This document shows, one piece after another, positions 196-11,463 of a stretch of DNA of 41,690 bases; position 1 is the first letter of the stretch, and the number at the start of each line of letters is the position of its first letter. Source of the stretch: Patescibacteria group bacterium (GTDB lineage: Bacteria > Patescibacteriota > WWE3 > 0-14-0-20-40-13); assembly GCA_018896215.1 (NCBI GenBank), contig JAHINB010000004.1, positions 1 through 41,690 of the forward strand, given 5' to 3'. The notes beneath the pieces were generated by a model. The model worked only from the letters and a program-made list of their open reading frames with translations. It was not told the DNA's origin and made no database searches. A program made the position numbers and the translations under genes.

Positions 196-1089
196 ATGAA
201 AAATTTCTATCACACTGGTGTACTAGTTGATCAAGCTATCGCGGGTCTTAATGTTTTTCCCAAAGAAAAATATATTGATGCCACAATTGGAGGTGGGGAT
301 CATACCGCGAAAATAATGGAGTTAGGAGGAATTGTTTTAGGACTTGATCAAGATGTCAACGCGATTAAATACTGCCAAAAACGCTTTGGGCATCAGTTGC
401 AAAAGAAGCAACTAACTCTTGTTCATACAAATTTCGAAAAAATTGACGAAGTCGCAAAAGCGCGTGATTTTGTCAATGTTTCTGGAATACTATACGACCT
501 TGGTATCTCGAGTTTTCAAATGGAAGATCCTACCCGCGGTTTTAGTTTTAGGTTCAAAGATGCCCCCCTTGATATGCGCATGGGAGAGCAAACGGGGGTT
601 AAAGCCTGCGATTTGCTAAACGCCTTACCCCAAAAAGCCCTTGAGGAGATATTTTTTAAATATGGAAATATTCGGGAGGCAAAGAAATTAGTTCAAGAAA
701 TCATTAGAGCTCGAACGAACCAACGGTTTGTTACTGTTGGGGATTTGTTAACAACGCTAATGCGAATAAAGAAAGATTTTACGCGTGACGATTTTGCCGC
801 CAAAGTTTTTTTGTCTTTACGCATAGCCGTAAATTTGGAGCTGGAGGTATTATCTCAATCTTTACCTAAGGCGCAATCCTTGTTGGACAAGGACGGGAGA
901 CTTGCCGTAATATCCTTTCAAGGTTTAGAAGATGGTGTGGTAAAAAACTTTGGTCGTGGCGCGAGTTCAACCTTAGTGTCTTTGTCTGTTCCTATGCGTT
1001 GTGAAATAATTGCAAACCCAAGGTCAAGAAGCGCCAAATTAAGGGTGTATAGATTTAGAGGTAGCAAAAATGAGATCGCTAAAAAATAA
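196..1089 (+). CDS. rsmH: 16S rRNA m4C1402 methyltransferase RsmH (MraW)
   Basis: SAM-dependent methyltransferase that N4-methylates C1402 of 16S rRNA in the cytoplasm. The 297-aa product shows the family N-terminus FYHTGVLVDQAI, the SAM-binding loop YIDATIGGGDHT (residues 27-38), GLDQD (about 50-54), the ILYDLGISSFQMEDPTRGFS block (family 'DLGVSS-Q-D---RGFSF'), PLDMRMG, and the C-terminal RSAKLRVYR. Length is close to the usual ~310 aa. It opens the classical division/cell-wall cluster, but mraZ, which usually precedes it, is absent. Its 3' end overlaps the ftsL-like gene by 20 nt, so the two are probably translated in a coupled way. No Shine-Dalgarno is visible at the ATG. Confidence 0.96.
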   Translation: MKNFYHTGVLVDQAIAGLNVFPKEKYIDATIGGGDHTAKIMELGGIVLGLDQDVNAIKYCQKRFGHQLQKKQLTLVHTNFEKIDEVAKARDFVNVSGILYDLGISSFQMEDPTRGFSFRFKDAPLDMRMGEQTGVKACDLLNALPQKALEEIFFKYGNIREAKKLVQEIIRARTNQRFVTVGDLLTTLMRIKKDFTRDDFAAKVFLSLRIAVNLELEVLSQSLPKAQSLLDKDGRLAVISFQGLEDGVVKNFGRGASSTLVSLSVPMRCEIIANPRSRSAKLRVYRFRGSKNEIAKK

Positions 1090-1330
1090 AAAAATTAACT
1101 TTTATTTGGTTTTTTCTTTTGTCATTGCTGTGGGGTCTTTTATCTTTGGGGCTTTTTTTATTAATTCTTCGTCCGAAGAAAGTTCTGAATACGCAAGATT
1201 TTTGGTTAGAAGAAACTCTTTGCTTACCGAAAATCAAATTCTACGCAATAAAACAGCAAAATACAGCGCTCTCTCTAACATTAAAAAAATGGCTACTGAC
1301 TTTGGTATGATAGATTCAATTACTAGATAA
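1070..1330 (+). CDS. ftsL: FtsL-like cell-division protein
   Basis: An 86-aa bitopic membrane protein with a short basic N-terminus (MRSLKNKK), one transmembrane segment (about residues 10-32) and an extracytoplasmic helix (about 38-70) with heptad-like Leu/Ile spacing. It ends in KKMATDFGMI, which resembles the 'I--iA---lGM' end of FtsL/DivIC proteins. FtsL forms a coiled-coil subcomplex with FtsB and FtsQ that activates FtsW-FtsI. Sequence identity in this family is always low, so the assignment rests mainly on topology and on its position between rsmH and ftsI. It overlaps rsmH by 20 nt, and its stop shares one base with the ftsI start (TAATG). Confidence 0.72.
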   Translation: MRSLKNKKINFYLVFSFVIAVGSFIFGAFFINSSSEESSEYARFLVRRNSLLTENQILRNKTAKYSALSNIKKMATDFGMIDSITR

Positions 1331-3036
1331 TGCTTTTAAAAACGATTGGGATTAGAATAGCTCTGGTACAATATTTTGTCGTAGGCGTTGCTTTGGTATT
1401 TTTGTGCCGATTATTCTATATTCAAATAATATGCCATAAAGCTTTGTTTGCTAAAGCAAGTAGCCAACAGGTTCAAGAAATTGTAATTCCAGCATCAAGA
1501 GGCAGTATTCATTTCTCTGATTTGTCGCCTTTGGCGTCTTCCCAAACAGCATACTTTCTTTTTGCCGAACCCAGAAATTTTACTGACAAAGACAAAAGCT
1601 CTTTAGTACTCTATTTAAAAGATAAGTTTAAATTAGATTCGGAAGTTGTTAATCGTCTTAACGATGTTACATTGTGGTATGTTCCAATTAAACATGGCAT
1701 ATCCCCGGAGGAAAAAGTAGAAATAGAAAAAAATATTACCAGTGGAATAGTTTTTAAAAAAGAGGATTCACGGTTTTTTCCAGAAGAAGATTTAGCGGTT
1801 TCTGTTGTTGGTGTTGTAGCTAGCGACGAAAATGGATTGCCCCAAGGTTATTTTGGTGTAGAGGGTTTTTATAACTCCGATTTGAAAGGCAAAAGCGGAA
1901 GGATTATTTCCGAAACCGATGCTTTTGGAAATGCGATTATTATGGGATCGTATACAGAGATGCCATCAATTTCTGGAACCAGCATTGTTTTGTCATTAGA
2001 CAGAGCTGTGCAATATCTTTTAGAAGAACGCCTTAAGTATTACTTGGCAAGCTATGGGGCAAAATCCGCTAGCGCTGTTGTAATAGAATGCGAAACAGGA
2101 AAAATCCTTGGGATGGCATCGTTTTTGTTGCTAGAAGAAGATAGCAAGCCAAAAATTGATTCAACATCTAACTTAGTTATAAGCGATACCTATGAGCCTG
2201 GTTCTGTCTTTAAGGCGTTTACAATGTCTTCTGCTATCGATTTAAATTTGGTTACCCCCGAGACTTCGTTTGAAGATACTGGTCCTAAATATTATTCGGG
2301 TCATAAAGTTGACACTTGGGATGGAAAGCATTATGGAACAGAGACAATGTATGAGGTGTTGGAACACTCTAATAACCTAGGGGCGGCATGGGTAGCCGAA
2401 AGACTAGGTTCCGAAAATCTTTGGAAATATCTTGTTAGCTTTGGAATGGGAACACCTTTGGGGGTGGATTTAGAAGGGGAGCAAACAGGGCAGTTGCGCC
2501 ATTATTCTACCTGGCGTGATATTGATTTAGCCACGGCTTCTTTTGGGCAGGGAGTTTCGGCGACCGCTCTTCAGGTTGTAAATGGTTTTGGCGCGATAGC
2601 CAACGGTGGTGAGTTGTTAAAGCCTTATCTGGCGGTAAATTTTGTAGAAAATATGCCCAATGGAGATACAAAAATTGTTAAACAAAGAAATTTAAAAACA
2701 ATAATTTCTAGAGTTATAAGCCAAAAAACATCCTTTACCATGGTTGATATGTTAACTCGCGCTACCAGTAGCGGAGAAGCCAAATTTTTTATCTCTAAAA
2801 AGTATCAAGTTGCGGGTAAGACTGGAACTGCCCAAATTGCAGTTGAAGGTGGCTATGACCTCAACAAAACTAACGCTACATTTGTGGGGTTTTTGCCAAA
2901 AAGCAGGAAATTTGTTATGCTGGTTCGGTTTAGTGAGCCTACTACAAGTATTTACGCCGCCGAAACTGCGGTTCCTGCTTGGATGGACATTGCGGAGAAG
3001 TTAGCTTTATATTACAGAATTCCTTACGATTATTAA
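1330..3036 (+). CDS. ftsI: Class B penicillin-binding protein, FtsI (PBP3-like) transpeptidase
   Basis: The septal D,D-transpeptidase that cross-links peptidoglycan outside the membrane. The 568-aa product has an N-terminal signal anchor (about residues 10-30), a PBP dimerisation domain (about 45-210, with ASRGSI), and a transpeptidase domain carrying all three penicilloyl-transferase motifs: SVFK with nucleophile Ser292 and Lys295, SNN at 347-349, and KTGT at 497-500. GQGVSATALQ is typical of class B PBPs. No PASTA repeats are seen at the C-terminus. It sits between the ftsL-like gene (1-nt overlap) and the murA-like gene (1-nt gap), the normal dcw position. Its SEDS partner FtsW is encoded 28 kb downstream, beyond the accessory insert. 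Confidence 0.95.
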   Translation: MLLKTIGIRIALVQYFVVGVALVFLCRLFYIQIICHKALFAKASSQQVQEIVIPASRGSIHFSDLSPLASSQTAYFLFAEPRNFTDKDKSSLVLYLKDKFKLDSEVVNRLNDVTLWYVPIKHGISPEEKVEIEKNITSGIVFKKEDSRFFPEEDLAVSVVGVVASDENGLPQGYFGVEGFYNSDLKGKSGRIISETDAFGNAIIMGSYTEMPSISGTSIVLSLDRAVQYLLEERLKYYLASYGAKSASAVVIECETGKILGMASFLLLEEDSKPKIDSTSNLVISDTYEPGSVFKAFTMSSAIDLNLVTPETSFEDTGPKYYSGHKVDTWDGKHYGTETMYEVLEHSNNLGAAWVAERLGSENLWKYLVSFGMGTPLGVDLEGEQTGQLRHYSTWRDIDLATASFGQGVSATALQVVNGFGAIANGGELLKPYLAVNFVENMPNGDTKIVKQRNLKTIISRVISQKTSFTMVDMLTRATSSGEAKFFISKKYQVAGKTGTAQIAVEGGYDLNKTNATFVGFLPKSRKFVMLVRFSEPTTSIYAAETAVPAWMDIAEKLALYYRIPYDY

Positions 3037-3037
3037 G

Positions 3038-4321
3038 ATGAAATATATTGTAGCTGGTCAAAATAAAATTGCGGGAAAAGTTGCTGTTTCGGGATCGCCT
3101 CTTGGTGCATCTGCTTTAGTTTCTTTGGCGCTACTTTTAAATGACAATTCAAAAATAGAGAATGCTCCTAGTTCTTTTGGTTTCGATCAACTATTTAATA
3201 TTTTAGTGTCTGTGTTCTCTAAAACAACAAGAAGTCAGGATGGAATCCTCTTAGTAGATCCTTCTGTTGCTTCTACAAGCCCCAAGAGAATAAAAATTGC
3301 AGTGGATATCGACAACGAGGTTTTTTTTGCCTTGCCTGCTTTCATTTTTAAAAATATAGAGGTCATTTTGGATGGTTCATCAAAGATCTTTAACAAGCAC
3401 AAAAATATTCTTGATCTTTTAAAAATTTTTGGACTAGTAAAAGAAACTAATTCCAAAAATTTGCTGGTTATTAGACCCGCGATTATAAAGGAGAGCTATT
3501 ATCTAGATTTTCGAAATAGGGGTGGACCTGAAGCGTTTTTGGCGATCCTCTTTGCTATCTCCTTGGATGCCAAAATTATTATGGTAAATTACCCCCAAGA
3601 TCCGCTGTTTAAATGGTTTTTGGGGGTTTTAGTAGATTGTAATCTAAATGTAGATGCTGGTGTAAGAACAAACGAATCGGATACGGTTTGTGTTTCTACA
3701 GCAGGTCTTCCTACAGGTAGAGTAGAGAAAAAAGTATCGTTTAACGACAATCTTGCGGCTTTTTATACCTTTCTAGCAATGGGTACTCAAGGTGATATTA
3801 CGCTTTCACAAGTCAATTCGCAGGACTTAATGCCTTTTTGCGCTAAGATATTGTCTTGGGGGGCGCAAATTGATTCTTTATCTAAAGGCGAATTAAGGGT
3901 TTATATGCAACCTGTAAAATATGAAGATACTGTTAGCTTTGAGGTTAAGCCATACCCCGGGTTCGTGGAATCTTGGAGTTATTTAGCTTTAGTTTTTCTT
4001 CTGTCGAGACAAATCGCGATGTCTTTAATCTTTCCCAATTCTTCCGTAATCCAGGTTTTACTTAAAGAACTTAATCGTATGGGCGCAAATTTAGATTTTA
4101 AAGTCTTGGGGAATTTTGTTAGCGTAACCAGTGTTAAAAAGTCAGCCCTTTTGGCGCAAAAAATAATTTTAGACGAGAGAGAACTTTTGTTGCCTTATCT
4201 TTTATTGTCTTTATTAAATAAAGGAAAGACAGTCTTAATTGGTGGCGAGTTGATTGATTCGTATTACCCCGGTCTGATAGATAACTTAAAAATGTTAGGC
4301 GCAAATATTAGCGTTGGTTAA
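3038..4321 (+). CDS. MurA-like (EPSP-synthase fold) protein lacking catalytic residues
   Basis: 427 aa with the MurA/EPSP-synthase repeat pattern: N-terminal IAGKVAVSG, repeated hydrophobic 'LL--LG' strands, PYPGF near residue 305, LNRMGANL, and a C-terminal LIDNLKMLGANISV. Compared with MurA, the essential Lys-Asn near residue 22 is replaced (SGSPLGAS at 18-25), the loop holding the PEP-reactive Cys reads LDGSSKI (about 111-117) with no PGGC, and the Asp after PGFP is missing (YPGFVES). It therefore cannot be a normal UDP-GlcNAc enolpyruvyl transferase. It lies 15 nt upstream of a complete murA in the same transcript. I infer a duplicated, repurposed copy, perhaps a structural or regulatory partner of MurA. 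A very different substrate is less likely. Confidence in the fold is good; function is unknown. Confidence 0.75.
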   Translation: MKYIVAGQNKIAGKVAVSGSPLGASALVSLALLLNDNSKIENAPSSFGFDQLFNILVSVFSKTTRSQDGILLVDPSVASTSPKRIKIAVDIDNEVFFALPAFIFKNIEVILDGSSKIFNKHKNILDLLKIFGLVKETNSKNLLVIRPAIIKESYYLDFRNRGGPEAFLAILFAISLDAKIIMVNYPQDPLFKWFLGVLVDCNLNVDAGVRTNESDTVCVSTAGLPTGRVEKKVSFNDNLAAFYTFLAMGTQGDITLSQVNSQDLMPFCAKILSWGAQIDSLSKGELRVYMQPVKYEDTVSFEVKPYPGFVESWSYLALVFLLSRQIAMSLIFPNSSVIQVLLKELNRMGANLDFKVLGNFVSVTSVKKSALLAQKIILDERELLLPYLLLSLLNKGKTVLIGGELIDSYYPGLIDNLKMLGANISVG

Positions 4322-4336
4322 TGGTAAGATATAGCT

Positions 4337-5656
4337 ATGGGTGATAACTCGTTGGGTTCATTGAAGATTGTTGGAGGAAATCCTCTGCGAGGTACTGTTG
4401 TTCCTATTCCAAATAAAAATTCCATCGTTGTTGCCCTTCCCGCCTCGATTTTAACTGATGAGACTGTTATCTATAACAATGTGCCACAATCAACCGATGT
4501 TCAAAAAATTTTGGAAATGATAGTTCTTTTGGGCGGTGAATTCACTTGGACAAGCGCCAACTCGGTTTCGGTTTGTTGCAAGAATTTAAAATCATATAAA
4601 GTCGATTTTGCTTTGGGAAATCTAATTAGAGCTTCGATTCTTTTCGCGGGACCGCTTCTTGTGCGTTTTGGTGTTGCCGAAATACCAGTCCCTGGTGGTT
4701 GTGTGCTTGGAAAAAGATCCATCGCTTCTCATGTTGATGTTTTTAATAAATTAGGAATTGTCACCGAGTTTTTTGACGGGTTTGTAAGGTTTACCCTGCC
4801 CAAAAAAATTACCTCCTGTTCCATTTGGCAAAACGAAGCCAGCGTTACAGCAACCGAAAATTTTGCTATGCTGGTTGCTGGTCTTAGCGGTAATACAATT
4901 TCACTTACTGATGCGGCTTGTGAACCTCATGTAGTTGATCTGTTAAAACTGTTATCGGATATGGGAGCGAGTATAACTGGCGCGGGTTCTAACATTATCA
5001 CCGTATCGGGTAAAAAACTAAAAGGTGCCACATTTGTTGCGGGACCCGATTTTGTAGATATTGGAGGCTTTATTGTAGCTAGCGCTTTAACTCACGGAAA
5101 TATTACGATCAGAGGTGGTAATGTTCCAGAAATAACGGGTGGAATGGTAAATTGGTTTAGGAAATTTGGGATTAAGATAGTAGAAAGCGGTCAAGACCTT
5201 GTAGTGGATGGGAATTGTGAACTTAAAATAGATCAGATTAATTCGGGGTTTCCTCTGGCTGGAGAAGATTTACTCAAATTTGCCCCTCGCCCCTGGCCAG
5301 GGTTTCCCGTTGATGTTCTGCCTCCGGTTGTAACGCTAGCTTGCAAAACAAACGGGAAACTTTTAATTAATAATTGGATGTATGAGACAGGGTTGGAGTT
5401 TTGTAAGGACCTAAACTTAATTGGAGCTAATATCCAAATGATTGATTCGCAAAAGATTATTGTTAATGGTCCTGTGACATTTAAAGGTGGGGAGGTTACT
5501 CCCCCGGGAATTATTCAAGCAGTCAAAGCTTTGTTCCTAGCATCTCTTGCCGATCCTGTTACAACTGTGGTACACAATGCTGACATCTTAAAGCGCCGAT
5601 ATCCTGATATAGTAGCAGGTTACACCTCCCTTGGAGCAAATATCAGTCCCGTTTAG
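4337..5656 (+). CDS. murA: UDP-N-acetylglucosamine 1-carboxyvinyltransferase MurA
   Basis: Transfers enolpyruvate from PEP to UDP-GlcNAc, the committed cytoplasmic step of peptidoglycan synthesis. The 439-aa product keeps PNKNS with Lys27-Asn28, LIRAS (the Arg that binds PEP), PVPGGCVLGKR with the reactive Cys122, and the general acid/base Asp326 in WPGFPVDVLPP. It also has GGEVTPPGIIQAVKALFLA and a C-terminal KRRYPDI. The stretch that holds Arg331 in E. coli reads YETGLEF here, so that Arg is not obvious. The Cys (not Asp) at 122 predicts fosfomycin sensitivity of this step. The ATG at 4337 was chosen because the ATG at 4321 runs into a stop after seven codons. It is the last gene before a strong terminator. 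Confidence 0.93.
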   Translation: MGDNSLGSLKIVGGNPLRGTVVPIPNKNSIVVALPASILTDETVIYNNVPQSTDVQKILEMIVLLGGEFTWTSANSVSVCCKNLKSYKVDFALGNLIRASILFAGPLLVRFGVAEIPVPGGCVLGKRSIASHVDVFNKLGIVTEFFDGFVRFTLPKKITSCSIWQNEASVTATENFAMLVAGLSGNTISLTDAACEPHVVDLLKLLSDMGASITGAGSNIITVSGKKLKGATFVAGPDFVDIGGFIVASALTHGNITIRGGNVPEITGGMVNWFRKFGIKIVESGQDLVVDGNCELKIDQINSGFPLAGEDLLKFAPRPWPGFPVDVLPPVVTLACKTNGKLLINNWMYETGLEFCKDLNLIGANIQMIDSQKIIVNGPVTFKGGEVTPPGIIQAVKALFLASLADPVTTVVHNADILKRRYPDIVAGYTSLGANISPV

Positions 5657-5696: not shown

Positions 5697-5761
5697 ATGA
5701 TTTGTTGTTAAATCAAGGTATTTTTGATGCTTTCTAAAATGTTGTTGTAACAAGAAAAGAT

Positions 5762-5791
5762 GGGGTGAGACCCAAATTCGGGTCTCACCCC
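5762..5791 (+). terminator. Strong hairpin terminator after murA
   Basis: A perfect 12-bp stem (5762-5773 with 5780-5791), GC-rich, with loop AAATTC, followed by TCTATCGTTTT. It probably ends the glyS-murA transcript, because a promoter-like box for the next gene follows 26 nt later. Confidence 0.75.
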
Positions 5792-5817
5792 TCTATCGTT
5801 TTACCCTAAAGAATCAT

Positions 5818-5846: not shown

Positions 5847-6359
5847 ATGCAAAAAGCCAAAAGAAGTTTCAAAGCACCAATTGTCTACGCTTTCATAGAT
5901 AGTCAAAATCTCAATTTAGGTGTTAGATCTTTAGGTTGGAAATTAGATTTTAATAAATTCTATATTTATCTAAAAGATAAGTACAATATCTCTAAAGCCT
6001 TTTTATTTATTGGATACTTGGATTCAAATAAAAACCTCTATAGCAATTTAGAAAAGTGGGGATACAGTTTGGTTTTTAAACCTGCAATACGATTTAATCG
6101 TAAAAGTATTAAAGGTAATGTAGATGCGGAGTTGGTTCTGCATTCCGCAAAAATTCAGTATCCAAAATATAATTTGGCAATAATTGTTTCTGGTGACGGT
6201 GATTTCTTTTGCCTACATGAAGAATTGGAAAAAGATAAAAAGCTTTTTAAAGTAATAGTTCCAAGTAGAAAATCGGAGTCGTCTTTAATAAAGAGATTTA
6301 GAGATTACAAGCTTTATGTCGAAGATATTAAGCCAAAGGTTGAGTTAATTGGGAAATAA
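5847..6359 (+). CDS. NYN-domain (LabA/DUF88, PIN-like) putative ribonuclease
   Basis: A 170-aa protein with the NYN/PIN-like acidic pattern: FIDSQNL (first Asp, about residue 18), KGNVDAEL (about 91-98) and the signature SGDGDF (about 115-120), all expected to bind a divalent metal in a nuclease active site. NYN proteins of the LabA type are generally thought to process or degrade RNA; the substrate here cannot be told. It is monocistronic by appearance: a terminator and its own near-leaderless promoter lie upstream, and a structured 99-nt gap precedes murB. Its place inside a peptidoglycan cluster is unusual and may be coincidental. Confidence 0.85.
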   Translation: MQKAKRSFKAPIVYAFIDSQNLNLGVRSLGWKLDFNKFYIYLKDKYNISKAFLFIGYLDSNKNLYSNLEKWGYSLVFKPAIRFNRKSIKGNVDAELVLHSAKIQYPKYNLAIIVSGDGDFFCLHEELEKDKKLFKVIVPSRKSESSLIKRFRDYKLYVEDIKPKVELIGK

Positions 6360-6458: not shown

Positions 6459-7469
6459 GTGATTAAACATCTTCCGCAAATTGACAAAAATGTTTCGCTT
6501 GCTTCGTTTACTTCGCTTAAAGTTGGAGGACTAGCGGAGAATTTTGCCGTTGCCAAAAATCAAGATGAGCTTGTGGCTTTGTATCTTTGGGCTAAACAAA
6601 AAGAGATTTCAGTTTTCGTCTTGGGTGGAGGAACAAATGTTTTAATCTCTGATGACGGAATAAGAGGATTAGTAATTAAAAACGAAGCTAGAGGTTTTGT
6701 AGTTGGTGACAAAATCAACTCTCAAACTGTAACTAAACGCAAAAAACGCAATCAGCAAACCCACTGGCGTAAAGGTCTTTTAAATTGGGACGATTTATCA
6801 ATTTCACAATCAACCGAGGGGGTTGCAATTGAGGTTCAATCAGGTCATCGGCTTCCTTTATTACTATCTCAAACACTACAAAACAAAATTACCGGATTGG
6901 AGCTTTTTGCCGGAATTCCAGGAACTGTAGGCGGTGCGGTGTGGAATAATATCCATGGAGCGGATTGGTTCATTGGCGATTTTTTGGAGTCGGTTAAAAT
7001 ACTCAACGCTGAAGGTAGTATCATCAACATCCCGCGGGAACAATTAGAACTGGAGTACAACGATTCGTTTTTTCACCGAAATAATTATTTAATCTTGTCG
7101 GCAAAGTTAAATTTATTTCTCGGAGATATCAAAACCGCACAAATGACAGCAAGTGAGTGGATAAAGCGCAAAATTGTGCAACCTAAAAACTCCGCAGGAT
7201 CCACATTTAGCAACTTAACCGAAGAGCAAAAGCAAACAGCTGGTTTGGACAATCTCTCCGCGGGTTTTGTGATTGATAAAATTCTCAATTTACGAGGTTA
7301 CACAGTAGGCGGAGCAAAAGTCTCCGAATCTCATGCCAATTTTATAGAAACTAAAGAGGGCGCAACAGCAAAAGATGTGCTGACGATCATCAACTATATT
7401 AAAAAATTGGCTCAAGAGAGGTTGGGTGTGGATTTAAAAGAGGAGATTGTGTTGGTTGGAGAATTTTGA
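6459..7469 (+). CDS. murB: UDP-N-acetylenolpyruvoylglucosamine reductase MurB
   Basis: FAD-dependent, NADPH-using enzyme that reduces the MurA product to UDP-MurNAc. The 336-aa product starts at GTG 6459. It has the FAD-binding N-terminal block FTSLKVGG, LGGGTNVLISDDG (about 55-68), ELFAGIPGTVGGAVWN, the Tyr in EYNDSFFHR, the catalytic Ser in NSAGSTFSN, GGAKVSESHANFI, and the C-terminal Glu in LKEEIVLVG. Between NEARGF and AIEVQSGH there is a Lys/Arg-rich insertion of about 30 residues (roughly 85-118, including KRKKR) not found in model MurB. One base separates its TGA from the murCDE start, so they are one operon. Confidence 0.93.
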   Translation: MIKHLPQIDKNVSLASFTSLKVGGLAENFAVAKNQDELVALYLWAKQKEISVFVLGGGTNVLISDDGIRGLVIKNEARGFVVGDKINSQTVTKRKKRNQQTHWRKGLLNWDDLSISQSTEGVAIEVQSGHRLPLLLSQTLQNKITGLELFAGIPGTVGGAVWNNIHGADWFIGDFLESVKILNAEGSIINIPREQLELEYNDSFFHRNNYLILSAKLNLFLGDIKTAQMTASEWIKRKIVQPKNSAGSTFSNLTEEQKQTAGLDNLSAGFVIDKILNLRGYTVGGAKVSESHANFIETKEGATAKDVLTIINYIKKLAQERLGVDLKEEIVLVGEF

Positions 7470-7470
7470 C

Positions 7471-10400
7471 ATGCCAAAAGCTCATATTTTAGGAATCGGT
7501 GGCGAAGGATGGTCGTGGATAGCTAAAGTGTTGTTAGAATCTGGTTGGGATGTATCAGGATGCGATGCTGGTGATATCGCTAACAACAAACATATTCAAG
7601 AATTATTAAAACTTGGTTTATCTAAAGTTTATCTCAACAACTCCCCTAATCATGTAACAGGTGACCTAGACTATTTTCTGTATACTTCCGGTTTACTTTC
7701 TTATCCCAAAAATATGGAGGAGTTAACAAGAGCAAACGAACTTGGTGTAAAAAGCTTGGACAGAAACCACTTTTTCCCAGTTATTCTTGATGATCGCAAT
7801 GTTGTTGCAGTTGCTGGGACTCATGGCAAGACAACTACAAGTGCTATGGTAGCGTATCTGTTCGATTCTATGGGTGACAAATGTGGATTTGGGATTGGTG
7901 GAACTTTGCTTAATTTTGCGACTAATGGCAGAGTAGGGGAGTCAAAAAACTTTGTAGTAGAAGCAGACGAATTTGGGAACGCTTTTTTGGGATTAACTCC
8001 CCAAATTGTCGTCTTGACACATTTGGAGAACGATCACACCGATTACTTTAAGTCGTTTAACGACATGCTAGGTTCATATCGGAAATTTGTAAATCAGGTA
8101 AAGAAAGGAGGACAAATTATTGGTTTTGGGGATAATCCAGGAATAGAAAGACTCGTATTAAATTGCAATAAAGACCAAATTTTTTATGGTTTTGAGCCTT
8201 ATAACAATTGTGTTTTGAGTAAGGTAACTATTAAGGATTTTACGACATTGTGGGAGTTTAAGTACCAGAATGTCGTATATAAAGCGCAGATAAATTTTCC
8301 TGGAATTCAATATGCCTTAAATGCTACCGCTTCTGTTTTGGCTTGTAATGCCTTAGGTTACGATATCAACACTACTATCTCTCATCTTCCTGGATTTATG
8401 GGAACTGCCAGAAGATTTGAGAAGTTTGTTAAGGGTGGTGTTACTTATATTAGTGATTACGGTCACCATCCAACCGAAATCGCGACCACTATCACTGGTG
8501 CAAAAAATCTGGGAAAAAGGTTGATTGTGGTTTTTGAACCCCATCAATACAAGAGGTGCGCCGATTTACTAGATAATTTTAAGGGAATTTTTGCAGATGT
8601 TGATATTCTAATTCAAACGGATATTTTTGCTTCTCGGGAGAATCCGCCCTACCCAATAACGAATGAAGATTTTTTTAAGGTTACAAAGATAGGGGTTAAA
8701 AACTTTAAATGCATCAAAGATTACAAAGATGTTTCAGATTACCTCTTAACGATTGTAAAAAGAGGGGATGTGGTCTTAATTTTTGCTGTTGGTCACGGGG
8801 AAAAAATTTTGGATGGTATCAAACGAAACCAAAAGACAGTAACTATTATGGGTTTGGGTATAAACGGTGGAGGGTTGGCGGCTACAAAATATTTTGCTAA
8901 AAAAGGGTATAAAGTTACTGTTACCGATTTAAAAACATCAGAGCAACTTTCTTCTTCACTTAAGCACCTCAAGTTACTTAAGGTACCCATTCCAATTACC
9001 TACCACTTAGGTTCTCATCAAGAAAAAGATTTTACTAACACTAACCTAGTTATTAGAAACCCCGGTGTACCACAAGATTCCCCTTACTTAAAAATGGCAC
9101 AAGAGGCTGGTGTTGAAGTGCGAATGCAAGAGGGGATATTTTTTAAAAATTGCCCCACTAAAAATATCATTGGAGTTACAGGAACTAAAGGAAAAACCAC
9201 AACTAGTTATTTAATTTACGAAATTCTCAAAGCCAATGGTTTAAGAGCGCATTTAGCTGGAAATATGCAAATTGGTGTCTTAGACGTTTTGTCTAAGATA
9301 AAAAAAGATGATTGGGTAGTGTTGGAGCTCTCAAGCTGGCAATGTGAAGCTCTGGACGATGTAAAAATGTCTCCAAAAGTTGCGGTGATTACAAATATCT
9401 ATCCCGATCATCTAAATCGCTACAAATCCTATAAGGATTACGCCCTCTCAAAATCTTCAATTTTTAAATATCAAAACTCAAATGATGCCTTTATCACAGT
9501 AAAAGATGGGGAATTCACCAAAGAATATTTTAATTTTTGCCCATCGCAAAAGATAGTTTTTGACAAAGATAGTTTTGCCATTCCAAAACCAATTCTTGCT
9601 GGAGAGCATAACATCTTAAATATTATGGCAAGTTTACGAGTTGCTAAATATCTGAATCTCAACACGGAGAGAAGTATCCAAGCGGTCTGTAATTTTAAAG
9701 GTGTTCCCTATCGGCAAGAATTAATAGGACAAATTGGAGGTGTTGATTTTATCAATGACACAACCGCGACAAATCCCACCGCCTCAAAAACTGCTATAGA
9801 AACATTCCTTTCTAAAAAACCTGTGGTGATTTTGGGTGGGGCTGATAAGGGTTTAGATGTTACAGATTTAGCCTCGTTCGTTATAACAAATCATGTTGAC
9901 TATGTATTCCTTAAAGGAGCAGGAACAGATAAATTAATAAAAGCAGGATTGGACTCAAAGTTAATCTTTAACGATTTTGATAAAGTTATCAGTTCCGCGT
10001 TCATCAAAGCCAGAAATAAAGAAGGTATTGTTTTGCTTTCTCCGGGATGTGCCAGTTTCGGCATGTTCGTAAACGAATTTGATCGTGGGGATAAGTTTAA
10101 CGCTTACTTTACAAAGTTAAAAAGGCTTTATGGATCTCACAGGTTACCAAAAATGGACTCTCGCCAAATCAAAAAAGGAGATATTTTTGTGGCAATAAAA
10201 GGAACTAAAATCGATGGCAACAAGTTTATTGAACAGGCGATAACAAATGGAGCAAAAACAATCCTTGGCGAAGACATTTCTGTTGGATTGACAAAAATCT
10301 ACCCCGAGATAAATTTTGTCGTAGTGAATAACCCAAGGCAGGCTTTTTCTGATCTTTGCGCTAACCATTTTGGCAACCCGCAAGATAAAATTAAAATTAT

Positions 10401-11463
10401 TGGGGTTACCGGAACCGATGGCAAAACCACCACTTGCCATTTTATTTATTCCATTTTAAAAGAGGTTGGTTACAAGGTTGCTTTAGTATCAACAGTTTCT
10501 TCTCCAGGTCTTCATACCACTACGCCCGATGCCGATGTGCTTTTTAAATTGCTAGCCAACCATGTAAAAAAGGGTTACGAATACTGTGTTCTTGAGACTA
10601 CCTCTCACGCTTTGGAACAAAATAGAATCGGTCCAATCAAGTTTGTTGTTTCTTGTATTACCAATGTTACTCCAGAGCATTTAGATGCCCACAAAACATA
10701 TCGTAACTACCTAAAAACAAAGGCAAAAATTATATCCAGATCGCAAGCAGTTTACCTAAATCCTCAAGGAGCTGGATTTTCTTTACTTTCTAAAATAACA
10801 AGTAACTTAAGAGACTTAACTGATCTAAAACTTATAAAAACCAACCCCATTAAGGGTTTATCGAGCAAGTGGGTTAAGAAGTTTCCAGGTGATTACAATA
10901 AACAAAACGCCGTTTGTGCCTCATCGGTTTGCGCGTATCTTGGGATATTTACAGAGGATATATCTAAAGGCTTGGAAAAAGCAATTCCTCCAACTGGAAG
11001 ATTTGAAATGGTAAAAAACAAATTAGGAATTAACATTGTAGTTGATTTTGCTCACACGCCAAATGCTCTTAATAACTTGCTTTTAACTGTTAGTAAGATA
11101 AAAAATAAAGAGTCGAAGATAGTTTGCGTTTTTGGCTGTGCTGGAGAGCGAGATAAATACAAAAGACCAAAAATGGGAGAAACTGCATCAAGATATTGTG
11201 ATAAAGTAATATTGACTGCCGAAGATCCCAGAAGTGAGAGCGTAGTTGATATTATTAACGAGATGGCCTTGGGGGACTCAAATTTTGATTTTATAAAAGA
11301 ACCAGACAGAAAAAAAGCGATTGCAAAAGCAATCAAATTAGCAAAAAAAGGAGATTGGGTTTTGGTTTGTGGCAAAGGGCATGAAAAGTCGTTAAATATT
11401 GGTGGCAAAGAAATTCCTTGGAATGATAAAAATATTATAAATAAGTTACTAAAAAGCAGATGA
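7471..11463 (+). CDS. murCDE: MurC-MurD-MurE fusion: trifunctional muramyl peptide ligase
   Basis: One uninterrupted 1330-aa frame holds three complete Mur ligases in pathway order. The MurC part (about 1-450) has ILGIGGEGWS, the ATP loop GTHGKTTT (Lys120) and YGHHPTE. The MurD part (about 455-885) has IMGLGINGGG, GTKGKTTT (Lys575) and INDTTATNP. The MurE part (about 888-1330) has DSRQIKKGDIFVA, GTDGKTTT (Lys985), DFAHTPNAL and KGHEK. They add L-Ala, D-Glu and the third residue to UDP-MurNAc in the cytoplasm. In MurE the motif that selects the diamino acid reads EDPR (1251-1254) rather than DNPR, so meso-DAP versus Lys is unclear. ATG 7471 is preferred over an upstream TTG because MPKAHILGIGG fits the MurC N-terminus. 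The stop overlaps ddl (ATGA). Confidence 0.95.
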   Translation: MPKAHILGIGGEGWSWIAKVLLESGWDVSGCDAGDIANNKHIQELLKLGLSKVYLNNSPNHVTGDLDYFLYTSGLLSYPKNMEELTRANELGVKSLDRNHFFPVILDDRNVVAVAGTHGKTTTSAMVAYLFDSMGDKCGFGIGGTLLNFATNGRVGESKNFVVEADEFGNAFLGLTPQIVVLTHLENDHTDYFKSFNDMLGSYRKFVNQVKKGGQIIGFGDNPGIERLVLNCNKDQIFYGFEPYNNCVLSKVTIKDFTTLWEFKYQNVVYKAQINFPGIQYALNATASVLACNALGYDINTTISHLPGFMGTARRFEKFVKGGVTYISDYGHHPTEIATTITGAKNLGKRLIVVFEPHQYKRCADLLDNFKGIFADVDILIQTDIFASRENPPYPITNEDFFKVTKIGVKNFKCIKDYKDVSDYLLTIVKRGDVVLIFAVGHGEKILDGIKRNQKTVTIMGLGINGGGLAATKYFAKKGYKVTVTDLKTSEQLSSSLKHLKLLKVPIPITYHLGSHQEKDFTNTNLVIRNPGVPQDSPYLKMAQEAGVEVRMQEGIFFKNCPTKNIIGVTGTKGKTTTSYLIYEILKANGLRAHLAGNMQIGVLDVLSKIKKDDWVVLELSSWQCEALDDVKMSPKVAVITNIYPDHLNRYKSYKDYALSKSSIFKYQNSNDAFITVKDGEFTKEYFNFCPSQKIVFDKDSFAIPKPILAGEHNILNIMASLRVAKYLNLNTERSIQAVCNFKGVPYRQELIGQIGGVDFINDTTATNPTASKTAIETFLSKKPVVILGGADKGLDVTDLASFVITNHVDYVFLKGAGTDKLIKAGLDSKLIFNDFDKVISSAFIKARNKEGIVLLSPGCASFGMFVNEFDRGDKFNAYFTKLKRLYGSHRLPKMDSRQIKKGDIFVAIKGTKIDGNKFIEQAITNGAKTILGEDISVGLTKIYPEINFVVVNNPRQAFSDLCANHFGNPQDKIKIIGVTGTDGKTTTCHFIYSILKEVGYKVALVSTVSSPGLHTTTPDADVLFKLLANHVKKGYEYCVLETTSHALEQNRIGPIKFVVSCITNVTPEHLDAHKTYRNYLKTKAKIISRSQAVYLNPQGAGFSLLSKITSNLRDLTDLKLIKTNPIKGLSSKWVKKFPGDYNKQNAVCASSVCAYLGIFTEDISKGLEKAIPPTGRFEMVKNKLGINIVVDFAHTPNALNNLLLTVSKIKNKESKIVCVFGCAGERDKYKRPKMGETASRYCDKVILTAEDPRSESVVDIINEMALGDSNFDFIKEPDRKKAIAKAIKLAKKGDWVLVCGKGHEKSLNIGGKEIPWNDKNIINKLLKSR

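Follow-up and report, generated by a model that had tools for sequence, protein, structure and literature searches.

MurA, the target of fosfomycin, catalyses the first committed step of peptidoglycan synthesis. In the stretch of DNA analysed here (the window, 41,690 nucleotides from an uncultured WWE3 (Katanobacteria) bacterium), two genes for MurA-like proteins lie one behind the other, and the first appears to have lost its catalytic residues. Why is such a gene kept in an operon for division and wall synthesis? Bacterial genomes generally carry one MurA, and multiple paralogues are known mainly from Firmicutes (survey, PMC9600426). No report of a MurA pseudoenzyme was found in the literature searched, of which the coverage was partial. 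We compared the locus with those of relatives, all of them metagenome-assembled genomes (MAGs).

Gene organization of the window

The two MurA-like genes (hereafter copy 1 and copy 2) are part of a dcw-type operon, and the features that concern us are as follows.

196..1089, + strand: RsmH (MraW), first gene of the window's dcw-type operon (E. coli RsmH-type matches in relatives, common order)
1070..1330, + strand: small FtsL-like ORF between rsmH and the PBP gene (by position and size)
1330..3036, + strand: FtsI-like divisome PBP with PBP_dimer and transpeptidase domains, directly upstream of copy 1
3038..4321, + strand: copy 1, degenerate MurA of the dcw slot (predicted pseudoenzyme), 427 aa; MurA fold, active-site residues gone
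4337..5656, + strand: copy 2, MurA-B, presumed UDP-GlcNAc enolpyruvyl transferase, 439 aa; catalytic set conserved
5762..5791, + strand: hairpin followed by a T-rich tail, a likely terminator at the end of the rsmH-ftsL-PBP-copy 1-copy 2 unit
6459..7469, + strand: MurB, the next pathway enzyme (TIGR00179, 177.5 bits)
7447..11463, + strand: MurC-MurD-MurE fusion, a single ORF of 1338 aa with three Mur_ligase_M and three Mur_ligase_C domains

Copies 1 and 2 are arranged head to tail with 15 nt between them, and copy 1 starts 1 nt past the stop codon of the PBP gene. The region 3' of copy 2 (5750-5810) forms a strong hairpin (-29.3 kcal/mol, z -6.5), and because this hairpin is followed by a T-rich tail, the five genes from rsmH to copy 2 are probably one transcription unit. 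Besides murB and the MurC-MurD-MurE fusion, which scores over the cut-offs of TIGR01082, TIGR01087 and TIGR01085, the window contains ddl, murF, mraY, ftsW, ftsA, ftsZ and a rodA-type gene, which means that the pathway needs a first step that works. The same fusion (1341 aa) is present in G001, the nearest comparison for the window (same family, f1, other genus), and the f3 genomes have separate ligases. In the window an NYN-domain (RNase-like) gene (5847-6359) separates copy 2 from murB; G001 has none at that spot, and its murB overlaps the tail end of copy 2.

Predicted fold and lost active site of copy 1

Copy 1 aligns to MurA models over its full length (residues 2-425 for NF006873), with scores far under the curated cut-offs (72.8 versus 297 bits for NF006873 and 70.6 versus 392.7 for TIGR01072). 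Its AF2 model is confident (pLDDT 84.6, pTM 0.88), and the best PDB matches of the model in a Foldseek search are MurAs (3swg, TM 0.80, E = 1.8e-27). Matches to AroA structures are weaker (best E 3e-20 versus 2e-27 for MurA), and no aroA model in NCBIfam matches copy 1 at E<=1; the Foldseek ranking rules out an AroA (EPSP synthase) or NikO identity for copy 1.

In a MAFFT alignment with E. coli MurA, whose numbering is used for residue positions, copy 1 shows P22, L23, D91, N or K at 120, D188, N231, S305, E369 and S397, and the Cys115 loop is deleted. The ligands of the PEP phosphate in MurA, which we take to be Lys22, Arg120 and Arg397, and the catalytic acid/base have all been lost together; Asn23, Arg91, Asp231, Asp305 and the loop Cys (or an Asp in its stead) are absent. 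The original prediction, made from the sequence of this locus, had described a retained MurA fold without the Lys-Asn, the reactive Cys loop and the PGFP-D Asp; model and alignment agree with it, and the loss extends to Arg91, Arg120, Asp231 and Arg397. Relative to MurA enzymes (NF006873, TIGR01072; 3swg, 1uae), copy 1 is thus alike in length, two-domain fold and placement in a wall-synthesis operon and differs in the missing Lys22, Asn23, Arg91, Cys115 loop, Arg120, Asp305 and Arg397. A fold that is kept with catalytic residues that are lost defines copy 1, as judged from alignment and model, as a predicted pseudoenzyme.

Copy 2 and the MurA-B clade

Copy 2 carries the catalytic set K27-N28, R98, PGGC122, R127, D326 and an equivalent of Arg397, in agreement with the predicted Lys27-Asn28, Cys122 and Asp326 of a second gene 15 nt downstream; Asp231 is present, and a Glu occupies the Glu188 position (E196 region). 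It scores over the cut-off of NF006873 (308 versus 297) and under that of TIGR01072 (295 versus 393), and its oddities are a Gly at the Asp369 position and a Gln at 371. In the MurA tree, copy 2 falls in a separate clade, MurA-B, whose members across WWE3 share 52-66% identity with it and throughout which the catalytic set is conserved. Collierbacteria, Amesbacteria and one Woesebacteria genome (Microgenomates) carry MurA-B with no other MurA found, which argues that copy 2 is a working enzyme despite the Gly at the Asp369 position, and we presume it to be a UDP-GlcNAc enolpyruvyl transferase. MurA-B-like genes of 45-52% identity also occur in Spirochaetes MAGs (L155, L158, L159 and L161), two of which (G068 and G069) have a canonical MurA besides; these genes reflect either transfer or a binning error.

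The two copies had been viewed as a tandem pair. They are indeed adjacent; the implied duplication does not stand, for the identity between them is about 18-19% and they belong to separate clades, and a recent tandem duplication is ruled out. MurA-B lies beside the dcw gene only in family f1 (both of the 2 genomes, 12-15 nt apart), loosely near it in the sister family f4 (1.5-2.6 kb) and on another contig in f3, so that conservation of the pair side by side is confined to the family of the window.

The MurA-fold slot of the dcw cluster in WWE3

The order of the dcw cluster in WWE3 is mraZ-rsmH-ftsL-PBP-[MurA-fold slot]-(murF/mraY)-ftsW-murG-ftsQ-ftsA-ftsZ. The PBP gene is the upstream neighbour of the slot gene in families f1-f9 and f11, as a rule with 1-3 nt between the two, and with 0-3 nt in G000, G002-G004, G007, G010, G011 and G014; in the large family f10 the slot gene stands directly before mraY. 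It overlaps the downstream FtsW or MraY gene in G003/G009 and in most f10 genomes examined. A canonical MurA occupies the slot in five WWE3 genomes (G002, G006, G008, G011 and G036), an Asp-type MurA (Asp for Cys115) in G020, and a degenerate full-length MurA in at least 34 others. The f4 copies and most of those in f10 lack the Cys loop and Arg397 and retain Lys or Arg22, Asn23, Glu188 and Asp305, so some of them could still bind a UDP-sugar; the copies of f1 (the window and G001), f3, f5, f7 and f11 have lost nearly all active-site residues. The Cys-less dcw MurAs of f10 (L118:8597-9922 and similar) score 333 bits against the NF006873 cut-off of 297.

A tree built from seven dcw markers, rooted at the midpoint and with several incomplete rows, shows canonical lineages interspersed with degenerate ones. 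A program count on it gives at least 3 state changes; our own reading of this tree implies some 4-5 losses of MurA activity at the slot, if loss is irreversible. The placement of copy 1 in the MurA tree is subject to long-branch artefacts, and the orthology of the slot genes therefore rests on synteny, not on that tree. MurA-B is present in 15 of 34 genomes with a degenerate slot versus 0 of 5 with a canonical one (P = 0.14, Fisher's exact test), a co-occurrence that is suggestive only. When a profile of the dead copies was searched across the phylum, most MurAs also matched, and above about 142 bits only WWE3 sequences were found; weaker-scoring dead copies may exist outside WWE3.

In f3, f4, f7 and G020 the dcw MurA-fold gene is followed by an antiparallel two-gene module. 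One of its genes encodes an ECF sigma factor of about 160-190 aa, the other a protein of about 280 aa with no Pfam match, a MurF/Mur-ligase homologue without the P-loop (hhalign probability 97.3, E = 2.7e-11). Related genes are found in G006, G008 and G013, and none were found in the genome of the window.

Sigma factor/Mur-ligase-like module: L074:7400-8821, L075:671-2070, L082:7749-9028, L081:13682-14924, L078:5776-7208, L105:5717-7131
Mur-ligase-like gene alone seen: L073:6276-7100

A second dead wall enzyme together with a sigma factor could be a sensor of wall precursors.

Selection on the slot gene

In at least 34 genomes, distributed among deep lineages, the slot frame runs for about 395-460 codons without a stop. 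In G024 the slot gene (L106:8390-9669) is split in two ORFs of 199 and 178 aa, through either true decay in this one genome or misassembly. In all near pairs of relatives dN (YN00) is far below dS, with dN of 0.22 for G003-G009 and of 0.05-0.08 in genus g14 (G015/G019/G021/G035), where dS is saturated; saturated pairs gave no usable dN/dS value. Where it is measurable, the slot gene shows about the same identity between near relatives as MurG or FtsW does. Between the window and G001, copy 1 shows 36% identity versus 56% for the PBP and 65% for copy 2, making it the fastest-evolving gene of the f1 cluster among those measured and indicating weaker constraint in f1. Since dS is saturated for this pair, its dN/dS is unreliable and our claim for it is limited to the maintenance of frame and fold.

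We compared identity at 37 active-site positions, substrate-contacting or catalytic in MurA structures, with that at all remaining positions. A pair of canonical dcw MurAs is 84% identical at these positions versus 56% elsewhere, and the copy 2 pair 89% versus 63% (P = 0.0009, Fisher's exact test). In the copy 1 pair, 9 of 37 active-site positions (24-28%) are identical versus 129 of 358 elsewhere (36%), and in a pair of dead f3 copies 16 of 37 (43-59%) versus 247 of 350 (71%). By these alignments the special constraint on the pocket is gone and the body of the protein is still under purifying selection, a pattern to be expected of a pseudoenzyme rather than of a relic or of an enzyme retuned in the same pocket. 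That the copy 1 lineage is a selected pseudoenzyme is well supported by alignments and model. The selected non-enzymatic role originally proposed for it is supported by full-length frames in nearly all relatives, dN far below dS, an unconstrained pocket and a conserved operon position.

Slot genes in genomes with no other MurA found

Besides the dead or degenerate dcw copy, no MurA was found in G005, G014 and most f10 genomes. Neither MurB nor MurC-F were found in G005, G014 or the single-contig genomes G019 and G028; the genomes being MAGs, this absence is best supported in f10, which includes single-contig genomes. The genomes in which dead or degenerate dcw copies persist with no MurA-B, MurB or Mur-ligase pathway found keep MraY, FtsW and MurG. 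Most f10 genomes (L118, L124 and L112, from G019, G028 and G030 respectively, and others, together with L189:811-2714), in which no MurB and no MurC-MurF set were found, retain, besides MraY, FtsW and MurG, FtsQ, FtsA, FtsZ and a MurT-GatD pair. G019 has a class A PBP as well, and G030 has one full Mur ligase and a MurT-like one. From gene content, most f10 genomes would have only the lipid-linked half of peptidoglycan synthesis. Because the slot gene stays without MurA-B, and even in genomes with no MurB and MurC-F found, its kept function is not, in general, regulation of MurA. The suggestion of a regulator or scaffold for MurA is not supported, since the dead gene is a member of the dcw cluster rather than of a MurA pair and persists where no other MurA was found.

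What the slot protein may do

Recurrent loss of activity in the relatives speaks for a non-enzymatic function in dividing the cell or assembling its wall. The constant neighbours of the slot are the divisome PBP, MraY, FtsW and MurG, and in E. faecium MurAA is a septal, MurG-binding protein for which a scaffold role has been proposed (PMC9975281); by this analogy the slot protein of WWE3 would be a scaffold that no longer has to catalyse, and a place in divisome-linked lipid-II synthesis is the role that we favour. The explanation that we consider best, and on balance somewhat probable as a whole, is that copy 1 is the original MurA of the WWE3 dcw cluster, now its degenerate slot occupant, retained as a component that binds other proteins in divisome-linked wall synthesis, with MurA-B having taken over catalysis. 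The dcw MurA would have lost PEP and UDP-GlcNAc binding and chemistry while its fold, length and position stayed, and a second MurA of another clade would have supplied the reaction; in the family of the window this MurA-B would have been placed directly behind the dead copy in the same transcription unit. The dead protein may hold or time cytoplasmic and membrane enzymes (MurG, MraY, FtsW-PBP), partner and effect being our conjecture, and perhaps ordinary MurA already had the scaffold role alongside its chemistry. The wider proposition that the MurA fold is an inherited structural part of WWE3 division, its activity lost independently 4-5 times and the fold kept even where the UDP-MurNAc-peptide pathway seems to be gone, is tentative, and we rate its chance as a little short of even.

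Could copy 1 instead regulate copy 2 allosterically, as the dead half of a heterodimer in which it modulates MurA activity or stability? The 12-15 nt spacing in f1 and the shared unit closed by a likely terminator in the window would suit this, as would two precedents, namely the paralogue dimer of MurAA and MurAB in B. subtilis, reported from crosslinking MS and AlphaFold-Multimer (PMC10090944; PDB 9a7b), and mycobacterial CwlM, a PG-amidase homologue without key zinc ligands that activates MurA about 30-fold (PMC4946905). However, f3 genomes carry their active MurA on a different contig, and G005, G014 and most f10 genomes have no other MurA that we could find for a partner. A single-chain read-through model of copies 1 and 2 gave a pTM of 0.52 and no confident orientation or interface, a weak test with few paired rows that tells neither for nor against a heterodimer. 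We regard such a heterodimer as unlikely. More doubtful still is a rebuilt pocket with a new ligand or enzyme activity: G000 and G001 show good conservation in the part of domain II that surrounds the former PGFP-D motif (YPGFxxSWxYLALVFL...LKELNRxG), but the former pocket is no more conserved than the rest of the protein, and f1 and f3 have no substitute set of charged residues in common.

It is very improbable that copy 1 is a decaying relic, retained merely through translational coupling within its operon or because the loss happened recently. Its rapid evolution in f1 and the two ORFs of G024 are what would be expected of one; against this strongly disfavoured reading stand the intact frames over deep lineages, the excess of dS over dN in near pairs, the confident fold and a frame still open at saturated dS, and on the intact frames and dN/dS we reject a relic pseudogene. 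Least probable of all, to the point of being nearly negligible, is a weak MurA or enolpyruvyl transferase that works through other residues: Cys115 can be replaced, by Asp in mycobacterial MurA (PMC4946905) and in G020, but in copy 1 Lys22, Arg120, Arg397 and Asp305 are all gone together and the loop is deleted.

The favoured scaffold has partial parallels. Firmicutes also have two MurA paralogues per genome (MurAA/MurAB, or MurA/MurZ), but both are enzymes and in E. faecium they are encoded apart (PMC9975281), whereas in f1 one is dead and the two are of different clades and adjacent. CwlM of mycobacteria and EnvC of E. coli are likewise wall-enzyme homologues without catalysis that became regulators (PMC4946905); they derive from wall hydrolases, whereas in WWE3 it is the MurA fold itself, in the dcw operon, and the state arose repeatedly at one locus. 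Pseudoenzymes of wall enzymes as regulators are therefore already known, and a pseudoenzyme of MurA itself is apparently new. Another likeness is the MurAA-MurG complex at septa in E. faecium and B. subtilis, with MurA as a proposed scaffold in a division-site precursor complex (PMC9975281); the MurAA of that complex is catalytically active, whereas the WWE3 slot protein is stripped and its binding to MurG would be an extrapolation.

Implications

Automatic annotation errs for part of this group: the Cys-less f10 copies pass a curated MurA cut-off and would be annotated as active, so that genome-based claims of UDP-MurNAc synthesis for such CPR bacteria can be false. If our explanation is true, a MurA kept without its chemistry in a division operon would show that MurA has a second, structural job, so far only suggested from MurAA-MurG binding in Firmicutes. 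The WWE3 slot, with its canonical, partly stripped and fully stripped occupants, would then be a natural separation-of-function series with which to test for such a job.
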